The notes under the pieces were generated by a model. The model saw only the letters and a program-made list of their open reading frames with translations, searched no databases and was not told the DNA's origin. From Bacteroidia bacterium (GTDB lineage Bacteria > Bacteroidota > Bacteroidia > Flavobacteriales > Flavobacteriaceae), in the NCBI GenBank assembly GCA_030428705.1, contig JAUIDI010000002.1, forward strand, positions 434,001-498,000: a stretch of 64,000 nucleotides of DNA, in the 5' to 3' direction. Shown one piece after another: positions 11,351 through 43,748 of the stretch. The stretch's first letter is position 1; each line of letters opens with the position of its first letter. The position numbers were made by a program, and so were the translations under genes.

Positions 11351-11382
11351 TTTGGATTATTAACACGAATTTTTGATTTTTG
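11351..11382 (+). promoter_or_regulatory. Probable promoter of the SusC/SusD locus
   Basis: TTTG at 11351-11354, a 20-base spacer and GATTTTTG at 11375-11382 (7 of 8 to TAnnTTTG). The predicted start of transcription is about 20 bases before the ATG at 11410. A second, overlapping AATTTTTG at 11368 has a poorer spacing. Confidence 0.45.
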
Positions 11383-11409
11383 CCGATAGCTAATTCAAAT
11401 AATTATAAA

Positions 11410-14400
11410 ATGAGAACAAAATTCAATGGAATCTTAACGCTGCTATTGGCGTTTGTTGTGCAGATGACGTTTGCACAGGAAAAGACGATTACCGGTACGG
11501 TTACCGACCAAGACGGTCTGCCATTGCCTGGTGTAAACATCGTCGTACAGGGTACCACAAGTGGGACCCAAACTGACTTTGACGGAAACTACTCTATTAA
11601 TGGAGAAGTTGGTCAGGTACTCTCTTTCACCTATATAGGTCAAAAAGAGGTACAGGTACCTATAGGTGCCGGTGACACCGTTAATGTACAAATGCAGGAA
11701 GATGCCCAGGCCTTGGAAGAGGTCGTGGTTACTGCTCAGGGTATTAAAAGAGAGAAAAAAGCTCTAGGTTATGCCACTAGTTCCGTAGGTGAAGAGGCTC
11801 TGGAGCAACGAGCAGAAGGTGATGTTGCACGTGTACTTGCAGGTAAGGCATCAGGGGTTCAGATTACCGCAGCCGGTGGTATGTCAGGTTCTGCAACCAG
11901 CGTTACGATTCGTGGTCTAAGTTCATTTAGTGGAAGTAACCAAGCGCTATTTATTGTTGATGGTATTCCTTTTAGTAATGATACCAACAATAACGGCAAT
12001 GACTTCCTTTCTGGTAATACAGGTTCTTCGCGTTTCTTGGATATCGACCCTAACAACATTGCAAACATTGAGGTGTTAAAGGGGTTGGCCGCAACCACAT
12101 TGTATGGTACCTTGGGTAAAAACGGTGTTATTTTGATAACCACCAAGGCCGGTGCTGCCAATGGAGGCGTTAAAAAGAACGAGATTTCCGTCAGTACTTC
12201 GTACTTTGTCAATCAATATGCATCACTTCCTGATTATCAGCAATCGTATGGTGGTGGTTTCGACCAATCTTTCGGATGGTTCTTCAGTAACTGGGGCCCT
12301 AGTTTCGAAGAAGGTGGCACCGCAGGTTGGGGGGCACAACCCGCAATCGACGCAAATGCTACCTTGGAGCACCCATACTCTACAACGGCAATTGCCGCCA
12401 CGAGAGATGCATTTCCGGAACTTCAAGGTGCTAGATATGCATGGAGACCCTACAGCTCGGTAGAGGACTTTTTCGCACCGGGTTACGTAACAAACACCTC
12501 GGTGAACTTCTCTGGGGGCTCGCAAGATGGCAATACAACTTTCAATGCCAACCTGGGACATCTAAACGATGTGGGTTTTACACCTGGAAACCAATTAAAA
12601 AGGGTTAACTTCTCAGTAGGTGGACGCTCAAAGTTGAGCAACAAATTTACCATAACCGGGGCTATGAACTATTCCCGAACCGATTATGATACACCTCCTG
12701 TCTCTGCAAGTAGGGGTAACGGAGGTATCAGTTCAAACTCTATTTATGGTGCTGTTCTCTTTACACCGATCAGTGTAGACTTGATGGGGCTTCCGTATGA
12801 AAACCCCGTGACCGGTGGTAGTGTCTATTATAGAAATGGTAATGACATTATTAACCCCCGTTGGGTAGCCGAACATATCAAATTCAACCAGTTGACCAAT
12901 AGGTTTTACTTCAATACTTCGTTGAACTATGAACTAAGTGAAAACCTTGGAGTGACGTGGAGAACAGGTTTGGATTTCTATACGGAAAGAAACACACAGT
13001 TTTCTGATAAAGGTGGGGTCGAGTTCACCTTCGACATTTTCGGTTTCTTGAATACGTTCGATAACAATAATACCATTTGGGATCATACACTTTCATTTAA
13101 TGGAAATTATGACCTTTCGGAAAAAATAGGCCTTACGTTTAACCTAGGAGCCAATGCACGATCAGATGATTTTGATATACAGGGTGTTGCCAGTACCGGT
13201 CAACTCGTTTATGGTGTAAGAAGGCACTTCAATTATGAGAACCAACTACCCATTCAATTTTCGAGAAAGAGAAACATCGTAGGTGTCTTTGGCGACGTAA
13301 GTTTTGATTACGACAACTACTTATTCTTAAACTTTAGTGCAAGAAGGGACTGGGTATCTAACTTGATTAAAGAAAATCGCAGTTTGACCTATCCTGGTGG
13401 AAGTATCTCATTTTTGCCTACCGCTGCCTTCAGCGGATTGCAATCAGAAAACGGGCTGAACTATCTAAAGTTACGAGCCAGTTATGGTACATCCGCAAAC
13501 TTTCCAACTGACTATCCTACAGTAAGCGGTGTGGATCAGACAACTCAAGTTTCAGGTGGAGCCTTTGGGCCGATAACGACCAACAGCATAAGTAATTTTA
13601 AAGCCAACCCAGACTTAAAACCTGAGTTGTTAAAAGAATTCGAGGTAGGTTTTGAAAGTAAGTTCTGGAAAAATAGGATTTCATTGGACGCCACCTATTA
13701 TGATAGACGTACCGACGACCTGATCGTTTTTGAACCCTTATCGCCATCTACCGGATTTACCATTACTCAGAATAACATTGGTCAGATTAGCAACAAAGGT
13801 ATCGAAGCGGACTTGGGAATCGATTTATTCAGAAGCGAAGATGGCTTTAACTGGAATACCAGTGTCAACTTCTTTACGAATAAGGAAATTGTCGAGGAAC
13901 AAGAGCAAGATATCATCTTCTATTCTGGTAATACGGCATTGTTCATAGGTGCTAATGCCGCTATAAAAGGTGAATCGCTGGGTACCATTGTCGGTACAGC
14001 CTTTTTGCGTGACGAAGCAGGTAATCTGTTAACGAACGATGCAGGTAACTATGTAATCACTGAGTCGGATTTGGATGGCAATGTGCCGATTATCGGTGAT
14101 GCGGTTCCTGATTATACCATGAACTTCATCAATAGTCTTTCATATAAGAATTGGAGTCTAGGTTTCCAGATAAACCACATAAAAGGTGGTGACATCATGT
14201 CAAGTACGATTGCCACTTTGTTGGGTAGGGGCTTGATCGTTGAGACCGAAGATCGTCTCAACACCTATATCCTTCCTGGGGTAAATCAGAATTCGGGACA
14301 GCCTAATGATATTCAGTTGAACAACTCAACTTATTTCTTTAACAACCTATTGTTCGGCCCTGCAGAGGCAAAAATATACGATGCTTCTGTACTCAGGCTG

Positions 14401-14637
14401 CAAGAAGTATCATTAGGATACTCATTGCCTAAGAAAGCTTTGGAAAGAACACCTTTTGGGTCCTTGACCTTTACGTTACAAGGTTTCAACCTTTGGTATG
14501 ATGCCTACAACACTCCTGATGGGGCCAACTTCGACCCCAACGTTGCAGGTGTCGGTGTGGGTAATGGACGTGGTTTCGATTTCTTGAACGGACCAAGTAC
14601 CAGAAGATATGGTATGAGCGTAAAGATGACATTTTAA
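11410..14637 (+). CDS. SusC/RagA-family TonB-dependent outer-membrane receptor
   Basis: 1075 residues from the ATG at 11410. The track begins ten residues earlier, but MRTKFNGILTLLLAFVVQMTFAQ is a clean signal peptide. After it come a CarboxypepD_reg domain (about 24-108, TGTVTDQDGLPLPGVNIVV), the DEVVV-like linker (LEEVVVTAQG), the TonB plug (about 115-240, LAGKASGVQI and IRGLSSFSGSN) and a beta-barrel ending in Phe (YGMSVKMTF). It imports a ligand across the outer membrane using TonB energy, with the SusD partner as lid. It is co-oriented with the next two genes and reads as one transcript to the terminator at 17.3 kb. Substrate unknown. Confidence 0.95.
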   Translation: MRTKFNGILTLLLAFVVQMTFAQEKTITGTVTDQDGLPLPGVNIVVQGTTSGTQTDFDGNYSINGEVGQVLSFTYIGQKEVQVPIGAGDTVNVQMQEDAQALEEVVVTAQGIKREKKALGYATSSVGEEALEQRAEGDVARVLAGKASGVQITAAGGMSGSATSVTIRGLSSFSGSNQALFIVDGIPFSNDTNNNGNDFLSGNTGSSRFLDIDPNNIANIEVLKGLAATTLYGTLGKNGVILITTKAGAANGGVKKNEISVSTSYFVNQYASLPDYQQSYGGGFDQSFGWFFSNWGPSFEEGGTAGWGAQPAIDANATLEHPYSTTAIAATRDAFPELQGARYAWRPYSSVEDFFAPGYVTNTSVNFSGGSQDGNTTFNANLGHLNDVGFTPGNQLKRVNFSVGGRSKLSNKFTITGAMNYSRTDYDTPPVSASRGNGGISSNSIYGAVLFTPISVDLMGLPYENPVTGGSVYYRNGNDIINPRWVAEHIKFNQLTNRFYFNTSLNYELSENLGVTWRTGLDFYTERNTQFSDKGGVEFTFDIFGFLNTFDNNNTIWDHTLSFNGNYDLSEKIGLTFNLGANARSDDFDIQGVASTGQLVYGVRRHFNYENQLPIQFSRKRNIVGVFGDVSFDYDNYLFLNFSARRDWVSNLIKENRSLTYPGGSISFLPTAAFSGLQSENGLNYLKLRASYGTSANFPTDYPTVSGVDQTTQVSGGAFGPITTNSISNFKANPDLKPELLKEFEVGFESKFWKNRISLDATYYDRRTDDLIVFEPLSPSTGFTITQNNIGQISNKGIEADLGIDLFRSEDGFNWNTSVNFFTNKEIVEEQEQDIIFYSGNTALFIGANAAIKGESLGTIVGTAFLRDEAGNLLTNDAGNYVITESDLDGNVPIIGDAVPDYTMNFINSLSYKNWSLGFQINHIKGGDIMSSTIATLLGRGLIVETEDRLNTYILPGVNQNSGQPNDIQLNNSTYFFNNLLFGPAEAKIYDASVLRLQEVSLGYSLPKKALERTPFGSLTFTLQGFNLWYDAYNTPDGANFDPNVAGVGVGNGRGFDFLNGPSTRRYGMSVKMTF

Positions 14638-14666
14638 AAAGTTGCTAATTAAAAAGTAAAGCTATT

Positions 14667-16313
14667 ATGAAAAAAATAATAAAATACGTACTGGTGGTAT
14701 TTTTAGCGGGAAGTTTTTTGAATTCCTGTGATACCACAGATCTTGACCTTAGGGACAACCCTAATATTCTTACTAGCGGTGACCCTAACCTTTTGCTGAA
14801 TTCTATGCAATTGGCCTATAGAACCAATATGGCGACATTTAACAACATTGGTGGTGCCTTGACAAGGATTCATTTTATGGGCGGCAGGGATTATTTCAAC
14901 AACTATCCTGGTGCCACTTTGAACGGTGTGTGGAGTAATACTTATAGTAATCTTTTTGCGAACCTTCAGGCAATAGAAGCGGTAAATGCTGAATCAGACA
15001 TTAATTACGATTTTCACGTAGCCATGGGTAAAACTATGCAGGCACATACTTTGCTTTTGTTGGTCGATTTCTTAGGATCCGCGGCCTATACTGAAGCAGT
15101 CAATCCCTTGGAGTTTGCCGCGCCTAATCTTGACGATGGCGCATCAGTCTATCAAGCAGCCCTTGGTCTGTTAGATGAAGCCGAAGCCTTAATGAGCACC
15201 AATCCAAGTGCATCGGGCGCAACGGATTTCTTCTACGGAGGAGATGCCGCAAAATGGATAAAAGCCATAAACAGTATTCGTCTAAAAGCTTATGTTACCA
15301 CAAATGATGCTGCTGGATTCAATGCGGTAATCGCTGGAAATAATTTCATTAGCAGCTCTGATGATGACCTTCAGTTTGAATATGGTACTAGCGAACTTCA
15401 GCCAGACACACGTCATCCTGATTTCGCCAATGATTATACCCCCAGCGGAGCGAATATTTATCATTCAAACTGGACCATGGAAACCATGTTGTTGAAAGAC
15501 GACCCACGTATTCGCTATTACTTCTACCGGCAGGTGAACGGTACCCCTGGGGCCAATGATATAGATGGAAATGCCGTAGACCCTGATGAGGAACTTCTTG
15601 CATGTTCATTGGTGGTACCCCCACAACATTATCAAGATGGTGGCTACACCTTTTGTAGCGTCGATAATGGCTATTGGGGCCGGTCACATGGTAACGATGA
15701 AGGTACACCTCCAGATGGTTTTCAAAGAACTGCTTCGGGAGTTTACCCCGCAGGTGGTCGTTTTGATGATAATAGCTTTGATGTTGTAGGCCTAGGTCTA
15801 GGTGGGGGCGGTGCAGGTATCGAGCCAATAATACTGGCCTCTACTATCGATTTTTGGAGGGGCGATATGGCTACAAGCGATGCCGACAAAGCGGCCTTCA
15901 TGCAGGCCGGTATGGAAAAATCGATAGCTAAAGTACAGACTTTCGGTGCCTTGGATGCCTCGGCCGATAAATCGTTCGAGCCAAGTGAGAGCGATGTTAC
16001 CGCCTACGTTGATGGTATTGTTGCCGATTTCAACACTGCAACCGGAGATGATAAGGAAAACATCTTTGCGGAGCAATATTGGATAGCACTTTATGGTGGA
16101 GCTGCAGAGTCCTTCAATTACTATAGGAAGACCGGTTATCCAACAACGCTTCTTCCCAGCTGGGAACCAAATCCAGGGCCGTTTCCAAGATCATTCTTGA
16201 TACCGCAGAACGAGGTAGTAACGAACCCGAATTTGACGCAGAAAACTACGCTTACCGAGCAAGTATTTTGGGATACTAATCCGGCAAGTCCGGCCTTCCC
16301 GCCAGCGAATTAA
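14667..16313 (+). CDS. SusD/RagB-like nutrient-binding outer-membrane lipoprotein
   Basis: 548 residues with a lipoprotein signal (MKKIIKYVLVVFLAGSFLNSC, Cys as the lipidated residue) 29 bases after the SusC gene. The C-terminal block EQYWIALYGGAAESFNYYRKTGYP is the hallmark of the SusD-like 2 subfamily, in which the conserved E..N..RRTGYP segment is near the end. It would cap the SusC barrel on the cell surface and bind ligand. The subfamily is often found without polysaccharide-degrading enzymes, as here, so the ligand need not be a glycan (inference). Confidence 0.92.
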   Translation: MKKIIKYVLVVFLAGSFLNSCDTTDLDLRDNPNILTSGDPNLLLNSMQLAYRTNMATFNNIGGALTRIHFMGGRDYFNNYPGATLNGVWSNTYSNLFANLQAIEAVNAESDINYDFHVAMGKTMQAHTLLLLVDFLGSAAYTEAVNPLEFAAPNLDDGASVYQAALGLLDEAEALMSTNPSASGATDFFYGGDAAKWIKAINSIRLKAYVTTNDAAGFNAVIAGNNFISSSDDDLQFEYGTSELQPDTRHPDFANDYTPSGANIYHSNWTMETMLLKDDPRIRYYFYRQVNGTPGANDIDGNAVDPDEELLACSLVVPPQHYQDGGYTFCSVDNGYWGRSHGNDEGTPPDGFQRTASGVYPAGGRFDDNSFDVVGLGLGGGGAGIEPIILASTIDFWRGDMATSDADKAAFMQAGMEKSIAKVQTFGALDASADKSFEPSESDVTAYVDGIVADFNTATGDDKENIFAEQYWIALYGGAAESFNYYRKTGYPTTLLPSWEPNPGPFPRSFLIPQNEVVTNPNLTQKTTLTEQVFWDTNPASPAFPPAN

Positions 16314-35232: not shown

Positions 35233-38200
35233 ATGATGAAAAACCGAATCGCCTTAATATTCATTATTGGCCTCTGCCTTAGGGTTTCCTCCCAGCAAAT
35301 ATACCCTACGTACTCCAATGCATGGCAAAAAGTCTATATGTATGAAGTGCAGTCATTACCGAAATCAGCATTGGCCGAAGTTGAAAAAATATTTGAACTG
35401 GCCAACAAAGACAATAATGCCCCACAACTGGTAAAGACCCTTATCTACAAGTCAAAATTCGCTTTGACGCTTGAAGAAAACACCCAACTAAAGGTCGTTG
35501 AGACAATTAAACATGAAATCGCACGCACCGAATTTCCGGCCAAAAATGTTCTGGAAAGTGTTTTGGCCAATATTTACTGGCAATATTTTCAACAGAACCG
35601 TTGGAAAATCTATAATCGAACAAAAACCAAAGAAAAGGTACATGCCGAAGATTTCAGAACATGGGACTTGCAGACCCTTTTTCAAGAAGCCCAACTGCAC
35701 TATCAAAATTCATTAGTTGATATTGACAAACTTCAAAAAAGCGATCTACGGGCTTTCAATGCAATATTGACAACGCAAAGGAATTCGAAAAAATATCGCC
35801 CGACCGTTTTTGATTTTTTAGCACACCGCGCCATTGACTTCTATAAAAACGAAGAAGCCGGTCTTACCCGACCTTCGTATAAATTTGAAATCTCAAATTC
35901 AACCCTGTTATGCGGTAATTTAGATTTCTTGGAAACCGAGATCGTTACTAAGGACAGTCTATCACAACACCTCTCGGCGTTGAAATTATACAAAGAGCTA
36001 ACCAAGTTCCACAGCAAGGACAAAGATCCTACTGCATTGATCGATATAACCCTAAATAGATTGGGTTTTGTGAACGCAAATGCAGTTTTCGAGAACAGAC
36101 GGTCAATTTACTTAGGAACACTTTTCGAATTAAAAGAAGCCTATAAAGCCCACGAAGTTAGTACGGAAATCGATTATGTAATAGCTTCTTTTTTAGATGG
36201 GCAGGCCAATGAGTATGTTCCATTGACCAAAACGGAGAACCGCTTTAAAAGAAAAGAAGCAATAAGAATTTGTGAGGAAGCGATTAAAAATTTCCCGAAT
36301 TCGATAGGGTCCGAAAAATGCGAGGCCCTCAAAACCCGAATCGAACAAAAACAATTAAACATACGCATCGAAAAATTCGTTCCGATCAATACACCGTCAA
36401 GAATTCTGGTCAACTACAAAAATCTGGACAAACTTTATTTTAAGGCCTATAAAATTAGTGAAACTCAAAAATCCAGATTTCATAAGATATATAACGACTC
36501 AATCCGTACCGCCTTTGTTTCAAAACTTGAACAGGTAAAAACCTGGCAAGTTTCCTTGACAAACGAGCAGGATTTTCAAAACCATACTACCGAAGTGTTA
36601 CTTCCACCTCTACGACATGGTAATTTTTTGATTGTTGCCACCATGGAAGATGATGTACCGGAAAGTGGTATGATGGCTTTTGGTTTCGCACAAATCACCG
36701 ATTTGGCCTTAGTTCAAAGCAACCAAATTGACAAAAATGTTTACCAAGTAGTTGACCGGAATACAGGTAAACCGATTGCAAAGGCAAGGGTCAACCTAAA
36801 GTCGGAAGTTCGCGGTAACAAATTGAACAAAGATTTCATTACAGATAAAAACGGGCAATTTTCGTTTGAAACAAGTAGGTATCATCATAATGTAATGGTC
36901 ACTGTCAAAACTCAGAACGACAAGGCAATTTTTGGCCAACTTTACATCAACGGGCAAAATAGAAATTTCAGTGAAGACAGTGATGAAGAAATCGTTGTAC
37001 GTCCATTCGTATTTACCGATCGTAGTATTTACCGTCCAGGGCAAACGGTATATTTTAAAGTCATCGCCATAAAAAAACAAGGCAAAAAGACCGAAATACT
37101 CCCAAATGAATATATAGAGGTGATTCTTGAAGACCCCAACGAGCAAGATGTTCAAGAACTGAACATAAAGCTTAACGAATTCGGTTCGGCATCGGGTGAA
37201 TTCGTTTTACCGAGTTCAGGGCTGACGGGAACATACAATATTCTCATCGATGAGAGCTATGAGTACGACAGCCAACTTTACGACGACGATGACAATTATT
37301 ATGGCTTTGAAGACTACTTTGGGCATACCATTTCGGTAGAAGAATATAAGCGCCCTAAGTTCGAAACGAAGTTCGAGCCCGTTACCAACACTTATAGGCT
37401 TAATGATAGTATTACTGTAAAAGGCCGGGCAATGGCTTTTGCCGGGAGTACCGTTTCTGATGCTAAGGTTAGTTATAGGGTCATGCGAACGGCCCAATTT
37501 CCAAGATGGTATCACATATGGCCCGAACCTTCGTTTTCTTCAGATGCCCTGGAAATTGTCCATGGTGAAACTAATACGAATGCTTCTGGTGAATTTGAAA
37601 TCGTGTTTAAGGCTATTCCCGACCTGTCCATTAACGAAGAAAACCAACCCACCTTTAACTACACGGTTTTTGCAGATGTCACCGATTTAAACGGTGAGAC
37701 CCGTAGTTCCGAAACATTGGTCAAAGTTGGTTATCATACGTTAAACGCCACTATTTCAGTTGATGACATGATCGATAAGAAATCTTCCGATCATCACTTG
37801 AAAATCAATACCGAAAATCTGAACGGCGCGTTTGTTGCCACCAAGGGAACGATTAGAATCTTCAAATTGAAAGCCTCCGAAAACCCTTTAAGGGTACGCC
37901 CGTGGCAAGTACCCGATTATCAAAATTTCACCGAAGAAGAGTTTCGAAGACTTTTTCCGCACGATGCCTATACCAACGACGAACATGATGAAACCAAATT
38001 GAAAAAAGGCGAACTCGTCTACGAGAGAACATTCGATACTGAAAAATCAAGAGAATACTCCTTAGGGAATATTAAAAAATGGGTATCAGGACTTTATCTA
38101 TCGGAAATCGAATGCAGCGATAAAAACGGACAAAAAGTTAAGGACGAACAACGCTTTACCGTTTTCGCAACCAAAGAAAAGCAAGTTGCCGACAATAAAT

Positions 38201-41200
38201 TGTTCTTTATAAACACCGACAAGGTGATTTATAAGCATGGCGAAACAGTTGAACTTCAAGTCGGTTCTGCGGCCGAAAATGTTACGGTAACGATCGAGGT
38301 CGAAAAAAAGCAAAAAACAACCTCCACGTATTTTGTGCAGTTGAGCAATGAAACCAAGACGCTCAAAATACCGGTGACCGAAAACGATTCGGGCGGTTTT
38401 GGCATCAAGTATCATTTTGTCTGTTACAATAGCTTTAATGCCGGGCAATTGACGGTCATAGTGCCATACGATTCAAATAGACTTTCTATCGAAACGATGA
38501 CTTTCAGGGACAGACTGCAACCGGGTAGCGAGCAAAAATGGAGTTTCAAAATAAAGAACGACAAAAACGATAGGGTTGCCGCCGAGATTCTCGCCGCCAT
38601 GTACGATGCTTCCTTAGGCGGGTTTAAAACACATAGTTGGGCGTTCGACCCCATCCAATGTTATCAGTATTCATTATTTGGCATCAGCAGTGCCCATTAC
38701 AGTTTTGGAGACGTAGGTTTTACGGTTCGTAATTTGCCAAGGAATAACAAAATACTGCCACAACAATTATATGATCATCTGAACTGGTTCGGTTTTAGTT
38801 TTAACAATAACCAATGGGTTAACCGAAACTATTTGTCAAAGGTTGAAAGGCCGCGTCATGAATCCCGAAGTTCTTACGACAAAACCGTTTCCGGGGTGGT
38901 CACGGATGCCGATAATTTGCCATTGCCCGGTGTAAACGTGTTAATAGAAGGAACGACTTTTGGTACCACTACCGATTTCGACGGTTACTATTCCATCAAT
39001 GTAAAAAGTGACGATAAATTGATTTTTAGTTATATCGGCTTTAACTCGACCGAAGTCGATATAGATGATGGTAAAACCGTGAACGTGCAACTAGAAGAAG
39101 ATACCGCAAGGTTAGATGAAGTCGTTGTGGTCGGATATGCAACGGAAACCAAAAGAGCTATGACCAGTACTGTTACCAGTATCATTTCAGAAGAAATTTC
39201 GGAAGATAATGACATTGGCCAAGTTTTGGCCGGCAAAGTGGCCGGAGTAGAAATTGTTCGGGACGATAGCGTATCGGACGAAGATTCTTCAATTGTTATC
39301 AGAGGGTTAAGTTCAATATCGAATTTGAACAACCCGCTGTTTGTGGTCGATGGCACCATAGTAGAAGATTTTAATATTACCAGTGCCGACGTGCTTGACA
39401 TCAGTATTTTAAAAGATGAAGCCGCTACGGCATTATATGGTGCAAAGGCCGTTAATGGTGTTGTTATTATTTTGACCAGGTCGGGACAAGCCAAACTCGA
39501 TGCCGAACTATCTAAAATTCAGGCACGTAAAAACTTACGGGAAACTGCGTTCTTCTATCCCCATCTTCTAACGGATGAAGATGGTAACGTCAGTTTTGAG
39601 TTTACCGTGCCCGAGGCCTTGACCCGATGGAACCTCCAATTGCTGGCACACACTAAGAATTTGAAATCGACCTCAAAAACCTTATCTGCGGTTACCCAAA
39701 AAGAATTGATGGTCATACCGAACGTACCTCGTTTTTTACGGGAAGGTGATGAAATCGTTATCAGTACCAAAATTGCCAACCTCAGCAGCAAAAAACTATC
39801 GGGCACAGCTCGATTAGAACTCATCGATGCCATTGATGGTAGCGACGTTACGAAACAATTACTAATTTCTCCTTCTTCGGGAGAACCGGAGCGGGTCTTT
39901 ACAGTAGACTCCCTCAATAACACCCAGGTCTCCTGGCGATTGAAAATCGTAGAGGGAATTCAGACCGTGCAATACAAAATCATTGCAAAAGCTGGAGACT
40001 TCAGTGATGGGGAACAAAACCTGCTTCCAGTGTTGATCAATCGCATGTTGGTCACCGAAACCTTGCCGATGTGGGTACGAAGCGACCAGACAAAGACCTT
40101 CACACTCGACAAGTTGAAAAATGTTTCCTCGAAAAGCTTGAAGCATCATAAGTTAGCTTTGGAAATGACCTCGAACCCCGCTTGGTATGCGGTGCAGGCC
40201 CTTCCCTATTTGATGGAATATCCGTATGACTGTAACGAGCAAATCTTTTCAAGATACTATGCCAATAGTTTGGCAAGCCATATCGCCAATTCGAATCCGC
40301 GTATTCAAGAAGTTTTCAATCAATGGCGAAATTCCGATGCACTGTTGAGCGATCTTGAAAAAAACCAAGAACTGAAATCCCTTTTGATCCAAGAAACGCC
40401 CTGGCTTCGCGATGCCCGATCGGAAACCGAGCAGAAAAAGCGTATCGCTCTCTTGTTCGATCTAAACAAGATGAGACATGAGCAACAGAACGCCTTATCC
40501 AAATTAAGGAACAATCAAAAAACCTCCGGAGCTTGGGCCTGGTTTAATGGCGGACCCGACAACCGCTTTATCACGCAACACATCATCACAGGGTTGGGGC
40601 ATTTAAAGAAATTGGCGGTTACATCGAATGCCCCCGAGATGCAATCCGTTATTAAAAAGGCCATTTCGTATTTAGACAATGAATTCGTCAATGAATACGA
40701 GCGTATGAAGCAATATGCCTCGAATATTGACGATGACCATCTAAGCCGAACACAGATCCATTACCTGTATATGCGCAGTTTTTTCAAGGATATTCCTTCG
40801 AGCAAAAAGGTCAAGGAAATTACTGCCTACTATAAAGGCCAAACCCAAAAGTATTGGATGAACAAAGAGTTGTATTCCAAAGGAATGTTGGCCTTGGTTT
40901 TACATAGAATGGACGATTCGACCACTTCCGGCAAAATATTGAGGTCTTTAAAAGAGAACAGCATAACCTCGGAAGAACTTGGTATGTACTGGAAAGCGAA
41001 TACCGCCTCATTGTATTGGTATCAGGCTCCCATAGAAACCCAGGCGTTGCTGATCGAGGCTTTTCAGGAAATTGAAAACGACACCAAAACCGTTGACAAT
41101 CTTAAAATCTGGTTGCTAAAGAATAAACAGACCAATCAGTGGGAAACGACCAAGGCAACGACGGAAGCCGTATACGCCTTATTACTTCAAGGTAGCGATT

Positions 41201-41859
41201 GGCTCTCGGTTACAGATGCGGTCGAGGTCCTCGTTGGAGGCAACAAAATTGAACCTTCAAAATTGGAAAATACGAAGGTCGAGGCCGGTACGGGATATTT
41301 CAAAACCTCATGGAACAGTACCGAAATCACCCCTAAAATGTCGGAAGTACTGATCTCGAAGAAAGGGAAAGGCATCGCTTGGGGAGCATTGTATTGGCAA
41401 TACTTCGAGGATTTGGATAAAATCACATCGGCGGAAACCCCGTTACAGCTGAAGAAAAAATTGTTCCTGAAAAAAATTACGGATACCGGGGAAGAAATTT
41501 CCGAAATCACGGACAAGACCGACTTGAATGTGGGCGATTTGGTTCGTGTGCGAATCGAACTCCGTTCCGACCGGGAAATGGAATTCGTACACATGAAGGA
41601 CATGCGCGCCTCGGGCATGGAACCCATCAACGTATCCTCACAATACAAATGGCAAGACGGACTCGGTTACTACGAAAGTACCAAAGACGCAAGCACCAAT
41701 TTCTTTTTCGATTATCTGCCCAAAGGGGTATTCGTATTCGAATATGACCTACGTGTCAACAATGCAGGGGAGTTCAGCAATGGCATTACCACGATCCAGA
41801 GTATGTATGCCCCCGAATTTAGTAGTCATAGCAAGGGTGTTCGCATAATCGTGAACTAG
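35233..41859 (+). CDS. Alpha-2-macroglobulin family protein with inserted CarboxypepD_reg and TonB-plug domains
   Basis: 2208 residues (start at 35233 or the adjacent ATG at 35236). A signal peptide (KNRIALIFIIGLCLRVSSQ, no good lipobox) precedes a helical region of about 500 residues. Then come macroglobulin domains: FTDRSIYRPGQTVYFKVIAI (MG2 hallmark, about 595) and the beta-rich segments to about 1200. At 1217-1300 sits a CarboxypepD_reg domain (SGVVTDADNLPLPGVNVLIE). At about 1295-1417 sits a SusC-like plug (LDEVVVVGY, LAGKVAGVEI, IRGLSSISNLNNPLFVVDG). The A2M domain resumes (ETAFFYPHLLTDEDGNVSFE, about 1440). The thioester motif YPYDCNEQIF has Cys1667 and Gln1670. The insertion lies where the protease-bait region is expected. 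The family traps proteases in the periplasm; the plug module's role is unknown. Confidence 0.9.
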   Translation: MMKNRIALIFIIGLCLRVSSQQIYPTYSNAWQKVYMYEVQSLPKSALAEVEKIFELANKDNNAPQLVKTLIYKSKFALTLEENTQLKVVETIKHEIARTEFPAKNVLESVLANIYWQYFQQNRWKIYNRTKTKEKVHAEDFRTWDLQTLFQEAQLHYQNSLVDIDKLQKSDLRAFNAILTTQRNSKKYRPTVFDFLAHRAIDFYKNEEAGLTRPSYKFEISNSTLLCGNLDFLETEIVTKDSLSQHLSALKLYKELTKFHSKDKDPTALIDITLNRLGFVNANAVFENRRSIYLGTLFELKEAYKAHEVSTEIDYVIASFLDGQANEYVPLTKTENRFKRKEAIRICEEAIKNFPNSIGSEKCEALKTRIEQKQLNIRIEKFVPINTPSRILVNYKNLDKLYFKAYKISETQKSRFHKIYNDSIRTAFVSKLEQVKTWQVSLTNEQDFQNHTTEVLLPPLRHGNFLIVATMEDDVPESGMMAFGFAQITDLALVQSNQIDKNVYQVVDRNTGKPIAKARVNLKSEVRGNKLNKDFITDKNGQFSFETSRYHHNVMVTVKTQNDKAIFGQLYINGQNRNFSEDSDEEIVVRPFVFTDRSIYRPGQTVYFKVIAIKKQGKKTEILPNEYIEVILEDPNEQDVQELNIKLNEFGSASGEFVLPSSGLTGTYNILIDESYEYDSQLYDDDDNYYGFEDYFGHTISVEEYKRPKFETKFEPVTNTYRLNDSITVKGRAMAFAGSTVSDAKVSYRVMRTAQFPRWYHIWPEPSFSSDALEIVHGETNTNASGEFEIVFKAIPDLSINEENQPTFNYTVFADVTDLNGETRSSETLVKVGYHTLNATISVDDMIDKKSSDHHLKINTENLNGAFVATKGTIRIFKLKASENPLRVRPWQVPDYQNFTEEEFRRLFPHDAYTNDEHDETKLKKGELVYERTFDTEKSREYSLGNIKKWVSGLYLSEIECSDKNGQKVKDEQRFTVFATKEKQVADNKLFFINTDKVIYKHGETVELQVGSAAENVTVTIEVEKKQKTTSTYFVQLSNETKTLKIPVTENDSGGFGIKYHFVCYNSFNAGQLTVIVPYDSNRLSIETMTFRDRLQPGSEQKWSFKIKNDKNDRVAAEILAAMYDASLGGFKTHSWAFDPIQCYQYSLFGISSAHYSFGDVGFTVRNLPRNNKILPQQLYDHLNWFGFSFNNNQWVNRNYLSKVERPRHESRSSYDKTVSGVVTDADNLPLPGVNVLIEGTTFGTTTDFDGYYSINVKSDDKLIFSYIGFNSTEVDIDDGKTVNVQLEEDTARLDEVVVVGYATETKRAMTSTVTSIISEEISEDNDIGQVLAGKVAGVEIVRDDSVSDEDSSIVIRGLSSISNLNNPLFVVDGTIVEDFNITSADVLDISILKDEAATALYGAKAVNGVVIILTRSGQAKLDAELSKIQARKNLRETAFFYPHLLTDEDGNVSFEFTVPEALTRWNLQLLAHTKNLKSTSKTLSAVTQKELMVIPNVPRFLREGDEIVISTKIANLSSKKLSGTARLELIDAIDGSDVTKQLLISPSSGEPERVFTVDSLNNTQVSWRLKIVEGIQTVQYKIIAKAGDFSDGEQNLLPVLINRMLVTETLPMWVRSDQTKTFTLDKLKNVSSKSLKHHKLALEMTSNPAWYAVQALPYLMEYPYDCNEQIFSRYYANSLASHIANSNPRIQEVFNQWRNSDALLSDLEKNQELKSLLIQETPWLRDARSETEQKKRIALLFDLNKMRHEQQNALSKLRNNQKTSGAWAWFNGGPDNRFITQHIITGLGHLKKLAVTSNAPEMQSVIKKAISYLDNEFVNEYERMKQYASNIDDDHLSRTQIHYLYMRSFFKDIPSSKKVKEITAYYKGQTQKYWMNKELYSKGMLALVLHRMDDSTTSGKILRSLKENSITSEELGMYWKANTASLYWYQAPIETQALLIEAFQEIENDTKTVDNLKIWLLKNKQTNQWETTKATTEAVYALLLQGSDWLSVTDAVEVLVGGNKIEPSKLENTKVEAGTGYFKTSWNSTEITPKMSEVLISKKGKGIAWGALYWQYFEDLDKITSAETPLQLKKKLFLKKITDTGEEISEITDKTDLNVGDLVRVRIELRSDREMEFVHMKDMRASGMEPINVSSQYKWQDGLGYYESTKDASTNFFFDYLPKGVFVFEYDLRVNNAGEFSNGITTIQSMYAPEFSSHSKGVRIIVN

Positions 41860-42006: not shown

Positions 42007-42735
42007 ATGAAAAATGCACTACAGATTACCCAATCATGTTCCGAAAAATTTGAGAGCTTTGTCCCGACCCCTAATGGAGGATTTTGCAGTTCATGCGAAA
42101 AAGAAGTAATCGATTCTACAAACATGCCGGAACCTGAGCTAATTGCCAGTTTCAATAATAAGACTACGAATACCCGTGGCCAATTTAAAAACACACAGTT
42201 AAAAACTTATAGAACACCATCCATGAGTAGAAGAAATAATGGCTTTCTTACGCGAAGTATGGCAATGGTAGGGCTTTCATTGTTGAGCCTTGGCAGTGTT
42301 GCCAGCTTGCGGGCACAAGATCTGGCCAATGCAGACGCACCGTTAAAAACTGAAGTAAGTGTTTCGCAAAAACCACTTGATACAAATAGCTTCATAGTGC
42401 AGGAATATACGGTAAAAGGAACCGTACTTGATGAAACGAACGAACCGCTTTCGGGAGTCAATGTTGTTTTGAAAGGAACTGCGGAAGGGGTTGTTACAGA
42501 TCTTGACGGAAAGTTCGAATTTCCCAGAACTTTGGAGGTTGACGATGTTTTGGTTTTTAGTTTTATCGGTTATGAAACCAAAGAATATGTCGTTCCTGAA
42601 AGTAACTTGTCTACCTTGGACATTACAATAACCTTTGATACCGTGGATGTAGAACTTATGGGTGCCGTGGATACCGGAGGTGTTTACAAAACCAAACGCA
42701 ACATTTTCCAAAAATTCCTGGGATTGTTCAAATAA
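42007..42735 (+). CDS. Cys-motif membrane protein with C-terminal CarboxypepD_reg domain
   Basis: 242 residues. The N-terminus ITQSCSEKFESFVPTPNGGF followed by CSSCEKEVIDSTN contains C-x15-C-x2-C, a pattern I know from Bacteroidota proteins that read C..W..M.P...GRFC..C.K.V.DFT and that looks like a small cytoplasmic metal site. One membrane helix (SMAMVGLSLLSLGSVASLRA, about 82-101) follows, then a CarboxypepD_reg domain (VKGTVLDETNEPLSGVNVVL, about 138-220) outside. Its stop overlaps the next ATG by one base. Domain function unknown. Confidence 0.82.
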   Translation: MKNALQITQSCSEKFESFVPTPNGGFCSSCEKEVIDSTNMPEPELIASFNNKTTNTRGQFKNTQLKTYRTPSMSRRNNGFLTRSMAMVGLSLLSLGSVASLRAQDLANADAPLKTEVSVSQKPLDTNSFIVQEYTVKGTVLDETNEPLSGVNVVLKGTAEGVVTDLDGKFEFPRTLEVDDVLVFSFIGYETKEYVVPESNLSTLDITITFDTVDVELMGAVDTGGVYKTKRNIFQKFLGLFK

Positions 42736-43748
42736 TGAAATCAATCTTTCCCCTTTTGCTGCTCGTTAGCCTTCTATGTCACGGTCAGCGTGATGATTTT
42801 ATCAACGTCGATTTTGGAAAAGCGGATAGTATCGCACTTATGCACAAAGGGGAAAGCTTGAGAAACTTACCCATACTGATTCACGGATTAACGGCATCAT
42901 TGGAAACCGATGTCGAAAAATTCAGGGCCATTTATACATGGGTAGGCACGAATATTGAAAATGACTATCATGCCTATGTCAGAACTAGTAAAAAAAGGAA
43001 AAAACATGCCGATGATCGTACCGCCTTTCTTGAATGGAACAAAAGTTTTACCCCCAAGGTTTTCGAAAAGTTAGTGGAACAACGAAAGACGGCCTGTACG
43101 GGCTATGCTTTTTTGATAAAAGAAATGGCCCAAATCGCAGGTCTAGAATGTAAGATTATCGATGGCTACGGACGGACACCGACCTTGATTCTGGATGAAG
43201 AGAGTATTCCGAATCACTCATGGAACGCCATTGAACTTGATGGCAAGTGGTACTTGGCCGATGCGACATGGTCTGCGGGCCTTGTTATATTTGATGAGGG
43301 CGAACCAAGGTTCGAACATGATTATTTTGATGGTTATTTTTTGGCGGACCCGGCCTTGTTCGCAAAAAATCACTACCCCCTTGAAAAGAAGTGGACGTTG
43401 CTATCAAATCCTCCTGGCTTTGATGAATTCATAAAAAGCCCCATCGTGTACAAAGAAGCTTTTGCGTCGAACATCGTACCTGTTCAGCCTAATGAAATGT
43501 TTTTGGAAACCACAAAAAGCAAGCCCATTGAATTTATTTTTGAGACTCCCAAGGATATTAAAAATGAAAATACAATACTAATATTGAACAATGGTAATTC
43601 CGATAAAAGTGTTCACCCCGAAAGCACCTACGAAAAAAGTCAATTACGTTTAAAACATGTTTTTGATAAAACGGGGAAGTTTGACGTTCACATTCAGATG
43701 AACGATACCATTGTGGCCACATATGTTGTTAAAGTCAAGCGAAAATAA
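42735..43748 (+). CDS. Transglutaminase-like / kyphoscoliosis-peptidase-like secreted protein
   Basis: 337 residues, signal peptide MKSIFPLLLLVSLLCHGQ. The transglutaminase-like core spans about 50-190 with Cys121 in KTACTGYAFLIKEM, His161 in IPNHSWNAIELDG and Asp176 in YLADATW, the complete papain-like triad. The C-terminal third is a beta domain (FIFETPKDIKNENTILILNN). It may act as a protease or a cross-linking enzyme in the periplasm. One-base overlap (TAATG) ties it to the Cys-motif gene, and the A2M/plug gene lies just upstream on the same strand. Confidence 0.87.
   Translation: MKSIFPLLLLVSLLCHGQRDDFINVDFGKADSIALMHKGESLRNLPILIHGLTASLETDVEKFRAIYTWVGTNIENDYHAYVRTSKKRKKHADDRTAFLEWNKSFTPKVFEKLVEQRKTACTGYAFLIKEMAQIAGLECKIIDGYGRTPTLILDEESIPNHSWNAIELDGKWYLADATWSAGLVIFDEGEPRFEHDYFDGYFLADPALFAKNHYPLEKKWTLLSNPPGFDEFIKSPIVYKEAFASNIVPVQPNEMFLETTKSKPIEFIFETPKDIKNENTILILNNGNSDKSVHPESTYEKSQLRLKHVFDKTGKFDVHIQMNDTIVATYVVKVKRK

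Follow-up and report, generated by a model that had tools for sequence, protein, structure and literature searches.

A SusC-derived module in the hypervariable bait region of a Flavobacteriaceae alpha-2-macroglobulin, a candidate integrated decoy for proteases

A type I alpha-2-macroglobulin (A2M) encoded in the window (the whole 64,000-nucleotide stretch of contig JAUIDI010000002.1 analysed here) carries a SusC-derived module in its bait region. Judged by sequence comparison, this loop is a hypervariable mosaic across the family, assembled from SusC and LptD and in rare cases from GldJ or from an Oar-like TonB receptor, and the rest of the trap, including the thioester, is mostly conserved. 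We propose that the loop serves as an integrated decoy for proteases that attack the cell's own outer-membrane proteins, a reading to which we give a probability of about one half, and we infer that such proteases would be trapped. A protease attacking periplasm-exposed parts of these proteins would also cut the matching bait sequence, the cut would cause the A2M to collapse, and the thioester thereby exposed would capture the protease; the bait would diversify because of changes in the proteases or in what they target. Integrated decoys also occur in plant NLR immune receptors, where the sensor includes a copy of the self protein under attack, but this is an analogy only, the proteins being unrelated and the window protein a protease trap. 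In type I A2Ms, bait cleavage is known to free the thioester so that the protease is trapped (PMC4498604), SusC plugs are able to exit their barrel, whereupon proteases clip them in vitro (PMC7782687), and the protease selectivity of human A2M can be altered by engineering its bait sequence (PMC8267569). If baits do copy attacked proteins, then bait sequence would read out which envelope proteins are targeted. It would point to proteases that clip TonB receptors, LptD and the gliding/T9SS lipoprotein GldJ, and would provide a bacterial parallel to the plant decoys, in which the relation of bait sequence to protease specificity could be tested directly.

The open reading frame extends from an ATG at 35233 to a stop codon ending at 41859 on the forward strand, where its domains and the two downstream neighbours described below also lie, and encodes 2208 residues. 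Its domains follow the type I order of MG2, bait-region domain, A2M/MG7 and MG10. Pfam places MG2 at residues 592–672 (37006–37248), the A2M_BRD bait-region domain (PF07703) at residues 993–1118 (38209–38586) and the C-terminal macroglobulin domain bMG10 at residues 2073–2195 (41449–41817). The A2M domain (PF00207, MG7; Pfam residues 1438–1525) together with the preceding ETAFFYPHL motif occupies 39541–39807, and the thioester motif CNEQ is intact at residues 1667–1670 (40231–40242). The first-pass annotation had described a full bacterial A2M with an intact thioester, and both the Pfam domains and the sequence bear this out. A CxEQ thioester is kept in 88/104 and 79/80 relatives in two sets. 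It is lost, with the rest of the protein kept, in orthologs L074, L084, L085, L098, L096 and 11 more, some of which have SusC-type baits. Residues 1–22 (35233–35298) form a signal peptide of the Sec/SPI type with QQ around the presumed cut, in keeping with the Q-rule for Bacteroidetes signal peptides (PMC5837995). NCBIfam returned no T9SS tail match, no lipobox was apparent by eye, and the protein is probably periplasmic.

The closest described systems are ECAM/YfhM of E. coli and Sa-A2M of Salmonella, with which the window protein shares the ring of MG domains, the bait-region domain, CxEQ, MG10, the signal peptide and the bait slot (PMC4498604). The ECAM bait, however, is a largely disordered loop of which 20 residues (923–942) are unseen in the cleaved structure, whereas the window bait spans 307 residues and includes the SusC module. 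Type II A2Ms (MagD/YfaS) belong to the same superfamily and are also periplasmic protease traps (PMC5764988), but they are devoid of the thioester that is intact here. The same genome encodes a second A2M-like ORF of 1844 residues with an MG2 domain (G000 C9:166076, L323).

A conserved anchor, MYDASLG (residues 1123–1129; 38599–38619), immediately precedes the bait segment (38620–39540); in the orthologs the variable segment is the stretch between MYDASLD and ETAFF. Orthologs without a SusC N-terminal domain (CTD) have baits of approximately 120–240 residues, against 307 here. The module itself covers residues 1217–1420, between the bait-region domain and MG7, confirming the earlier placement of the insertion before ETAFFYPHL in the bait position. 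It consists of a SusC-type N-terminal extension or CarboxypepD_reg domain, the CTD (residues 1217–1299; 38881–39129; CarbopepD_reg_2 at 1219–1299, 78 bits), a TonB box, LDEVVVVGY (residues 1294–1302; 39112–39138), and a TonB-receptor plug domain without a barrel (residues 1307–1410; 39151–39462; Pfam Plug, 42 bits). The NCBIfam SusC/RagA profile TIGR04056 matches residues 1217–1421 with 233 bits over profile positions 1–209 of 981 only, and because the match stops there the module has no transmembrane beta-barrel. CTD, TonB box and plug are thus held in common with SusC/RagA transporters, but these possess a barrel whereas the window module is barrel-less and embedded inside an A2M. Its DEVVVV box is the motif that is functional in SusC Bt1763 (VDEVVV; PMC7782687), and the solved structure best matching residues 1216–1419 is a SusC homolog (8aa4, E 1e-35).

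In a predicted model of residues 880–1548 (overall mean pLDDT 63), the CTD is well folded (pLDDT 85–92) and superposes on the solved SusC NTE domain 9hfj with an rmsd of 1.0 Å and a TM score of 0.85. Outside the CTD the model matches A2M and complement structures, including that of Salmonella A2M (4u48). The plug scores below 50 in its first half and 57–69 in its second, the TonB box and first plug half are predicted to be disordered, and folding of the plug on its own is weakly predicted. The proposal of a complete CarboxypepD_reg domain, DEVVVVGY linker and barrel-less plug stands for the sequence, with this reservation on the fold of the plug. Structure prediction had been suggested as a check on the bait position, and the model agrees with the bait slot; its quality is modest, so domain order and the orthologs are the main evidence for the position. 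A model of a short-bait relative (pLDDT 54) was too poor for use.

The fusion is not an assembly artefact: many independent genomes have it at this very position, and the GC content of the module (0.42) equals that of the whole gene. The identical architecture in many genomes led us to reject both an assembly chimera and a one-off fusion. Recent capture from a known SusC was likewise rejected: the module is 40–48% identical to the closest SusCs of its own genome, with no near-identical donor. Elsewhere in the window, at 11380–16313, a SusC-like ORF (1085 residues, plug match at ~11473) is followed by a 548-residue ORF in the SusD position.

Searches with the module-free core as query found orthologs in 53/101 family genomes and 158/345 class genomes. 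Neither of the two same-genus species has the module, and one of them keeps only NALEGTVSGV, a plug-like remnant; on the core tree the window protein has a branch of 0.34, against 0.13–0.14 for these relatives. In the genus of G321, a different one, the A2M is encoded by 53 of 150 genomes. The SusC profile matches 26 of the 27 baits delimited there, and in 16 of these the module is complete; the remaining bait, L210, shows plug sequence by eye. By these comparisons the SusC-module fusion is not a single event, nor is it a constant feature of the orthologs. The expectation that similar architectures exist in other Bacteroidota was correct. Absence from close relatives, which had been held to indicate a one-off recombination, is indeed seen within the genus (two species), but the recurrence of the fusion throughout the family contradicts the one-off itself. 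None of the papers searched mentions an A2M with a plug domain or A2Ms with Bacteroidetes TonB receptors. By motif, SusC- or LptD-derived sequence is present in 126 of 155 Flavobacteriaceae baits against 10 of 45 from other families of the class; the SusC content can be a whole module, a CTD with its TonB box, or short peptides whose order often departs from the native one.

In close species pairs with full modules, dN/dS is 0.11–0.39 in the module against 0.04–0.11 in the core, so that on codon comparison the full module is under purifying selection, about threefold relaxed or faster than its flanks. Presence or absence of the CTD-containing module changes at least 16 times on the core tree, and a single origin is not rejected by the module tree (AU p 0.77). 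Taken together, these two results make an old capture, many times lost and rewritten, or exchanged between lineages, the simplest history.

SusC is not the only donor. Two recurrent bait motifs derive from LptD, with 71, 71 and 63% identity over 32–35 residues to the genome's own LptD in three genomes, and the matched segment lies around the start of the LptD_2 domain (PF19838, 563 bits). Four own-genome pairs score 96–169 against shuffle maxima of 57–73, a fifth scores 67 against 61, and in three of six pairs the genome's own LptD ranks first among eleven. A piece of GldJ is present in one bait (NDFNYYRGN and NFRDGD; score 94 against a shuffle maximum of 65; donor identified by TIGR03524, 936 bits) and a related peptide occurs in a second, L294. 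Six of eight GldJ matrix matches were chance matches to a conserved NWFGFYFG strand and were rejected, leaving L294 and L318. A bait from a distant family holds the segment just before the plug of its own genome's Oar-like TonB receptor (92 against 70), the only donor recovered for 13 baits without recognised motifs. Whole-genome searches of 24 genomes (E <0.001) with bait pieces picked by eye hit only the A2M itself, LptD and GldJ, and no cytoplasmic donor; some of the donors were traced by following recurrent motifs. All donors found are outer-membrane-associated. Baits L266, L292, L310, L312 and L099 share a motif similar to [ED]W[TAN]P[KQ]N, for which no donor was found in the genomes of the first four. 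TSP3-like DxDGVxD motifs occur in baits L101, L103 and L139 (3/104 baits, 0/1218 non-bait segments), perhaps from an OmpA-type source, but these pattern-scan counts are too thin for an OmpA donor to be claimed.

These donors bear on the possibility that a disordered bait loop simply tolerates any gene fragment, with the abundant SusC genes as the commonest source. We regard such neutral insertion as unlikely, although it is the least improbable of the alternatives. It fits the number of SusC genes, the lack of the module in both same-genus relatives and its changes between presence and absence on the core tree, but not a module dN/dS well below 1, nor the use of LptD and GldJ, which are not large gene families, the lack of cytoplasmic donors in the 24 genomes, or the Oar-like donor in another family.

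The SusC content was quantified by scoring 200 distinct baits with position-specific matrices built from 41 SusCs, each bait's own shuffles serving as the reference (p<=0.002); these baits are related by descent, so the counts are descriptive rather than independent events, and several of the later ones pool genomes from different collections. Matches were found to the TonB box in 89 baits, LxGKVAG in 62, IRGxxS in 42, YGxxANGV in 37 and the CTD in 44, against 0–2 for reversed matrices. Among 1218 non-bait segments of 140 residues from the same proteins, the TonB box matched 2, LxGKVAG 4 and IRGxxS 2, an enrichment of approximately 70- to 160-fold (26/22/16% of short baits against 0.16–0.33% of segments). 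The plug motif precedes the TonB box in 19 of 21 short baits, the inverse of the native order, which is kept in 21 of 22 CTD-containing baits; linear sequence, not plug fold, is therefore what is retained. Simple decay of one module is insufficient, since it would not invert the order and the LptD and GldJ pieces need other sources.

With the TonB box as the commonest motif, intact in the window and homologous to one functional in SusC (PMC7782687), TonB might be supposed to grip the bait, so that the A2M is either moored to the energised motor of the inner membrane or armed mechanically, and the independent appearance in another family of an Oar-like receptor's segment from just before the plug would fit as well. 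Yet of the 136 baits in which donor sequence was recognised, 38 have plug motifs in the absence of a TonB box and 6 contain LptD alone; docking by TonB or plug leaves these unexplained, LptD and GldJ sequence has no TonB box, and we consider this explanation improbable, ranking it after neutral insertion. The first-pass annotation had also raised a trap docked on a TonB receptor by its own plug; a fixed docking role for a folded plug is not supported in that form, as ortholog loops hold the module, only a CTD with TonB box, short scrambled SusC peptides, LptD or GldJ segments, or nothing recognisable. Least likely is a quality-control sensor whose bait mimics outer-membrane assembly clients, the cell's own envelope proteases or chaperones acting on the A2M if SusC or LptD is damaged or unassembled: SusC and LptD alike are barrels of the outer membrane whose N-terminal parts lie in the periplasm, and a tandem array of four CTD proteins without barrels, carrying TPR-like repeats and weak matches to DUF2135, is encoded in the genome, but GldJ is a lipoprotein, not a barrel, and no known stress pathway link was found in the A2M neighbourhood.

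The integrated-decoy reading accounts together for the choice of donors, the indifference to fold and order and the fast turnover, and is supported by the bait-slot position, by own-genome donors that are all outer-membrane-associated and by a module that is constrained yet fast. Against it weigh the baits with no SusC or LptD motif (29/155 in Flavobacteriaceae, 35/45 in other families), the absence of CxEQ from 4 of 48 own-family proteins whose baits carry donor motifs, and the prominence of the TonB box, which TonB docking also predicts. Of the two readings suggested earlier, a trap with a plug-like bait is the one that the comparative evidence favours; loop contents vary between orthologs, and the common denominator is sequence from the cell's own outer-membrane-associated proteins, not the plug. 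The SusC NTE, TonB box and plug, the LptD N-terminal domain and GldJ all face the periplasm. Flavobacteriaceae A2Ms may, more tentatively, keep rebuilding their bait from periplasm-facing self segments as a trap for any envelope-attacking protease, whether from competitors, predators, phages or hosts, which we hold to be possible rather than probable.

Gene order around the A2M is conserved in the closest named relatives (71 with both flanks), with an Mpl-like ligase upstream in 45/71 and DUF4136 and Obg downstream in 45/71 and 41/71. No PBP1C gene was recognised among the scanned neighbours of the window A2M. Directly downstream are a 242-residue, probably membrane-anchored protein with a Cys-rich N-terminus, a likely TM segment and a CTD (42007–42735), and a transglutaminase-like protein with a signal peptide (42735–43748), each near the A2M in 15/71 relatives. 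The four tandem CTD ORFs of the same genome (G000 C15:511333-517108; L169, L170, L166, L164) combine the CTD with TPR-like repeats; one has a Plug match above cut-off and two have weak DUF2135 (YfaP) matches, and by domain content they are a second kind of barrel-less CTD/plug fusion. In a further genome, three tandem A2M paralogs (G033 C1:488883-504671; L090, L091) have baits that differ from one another.
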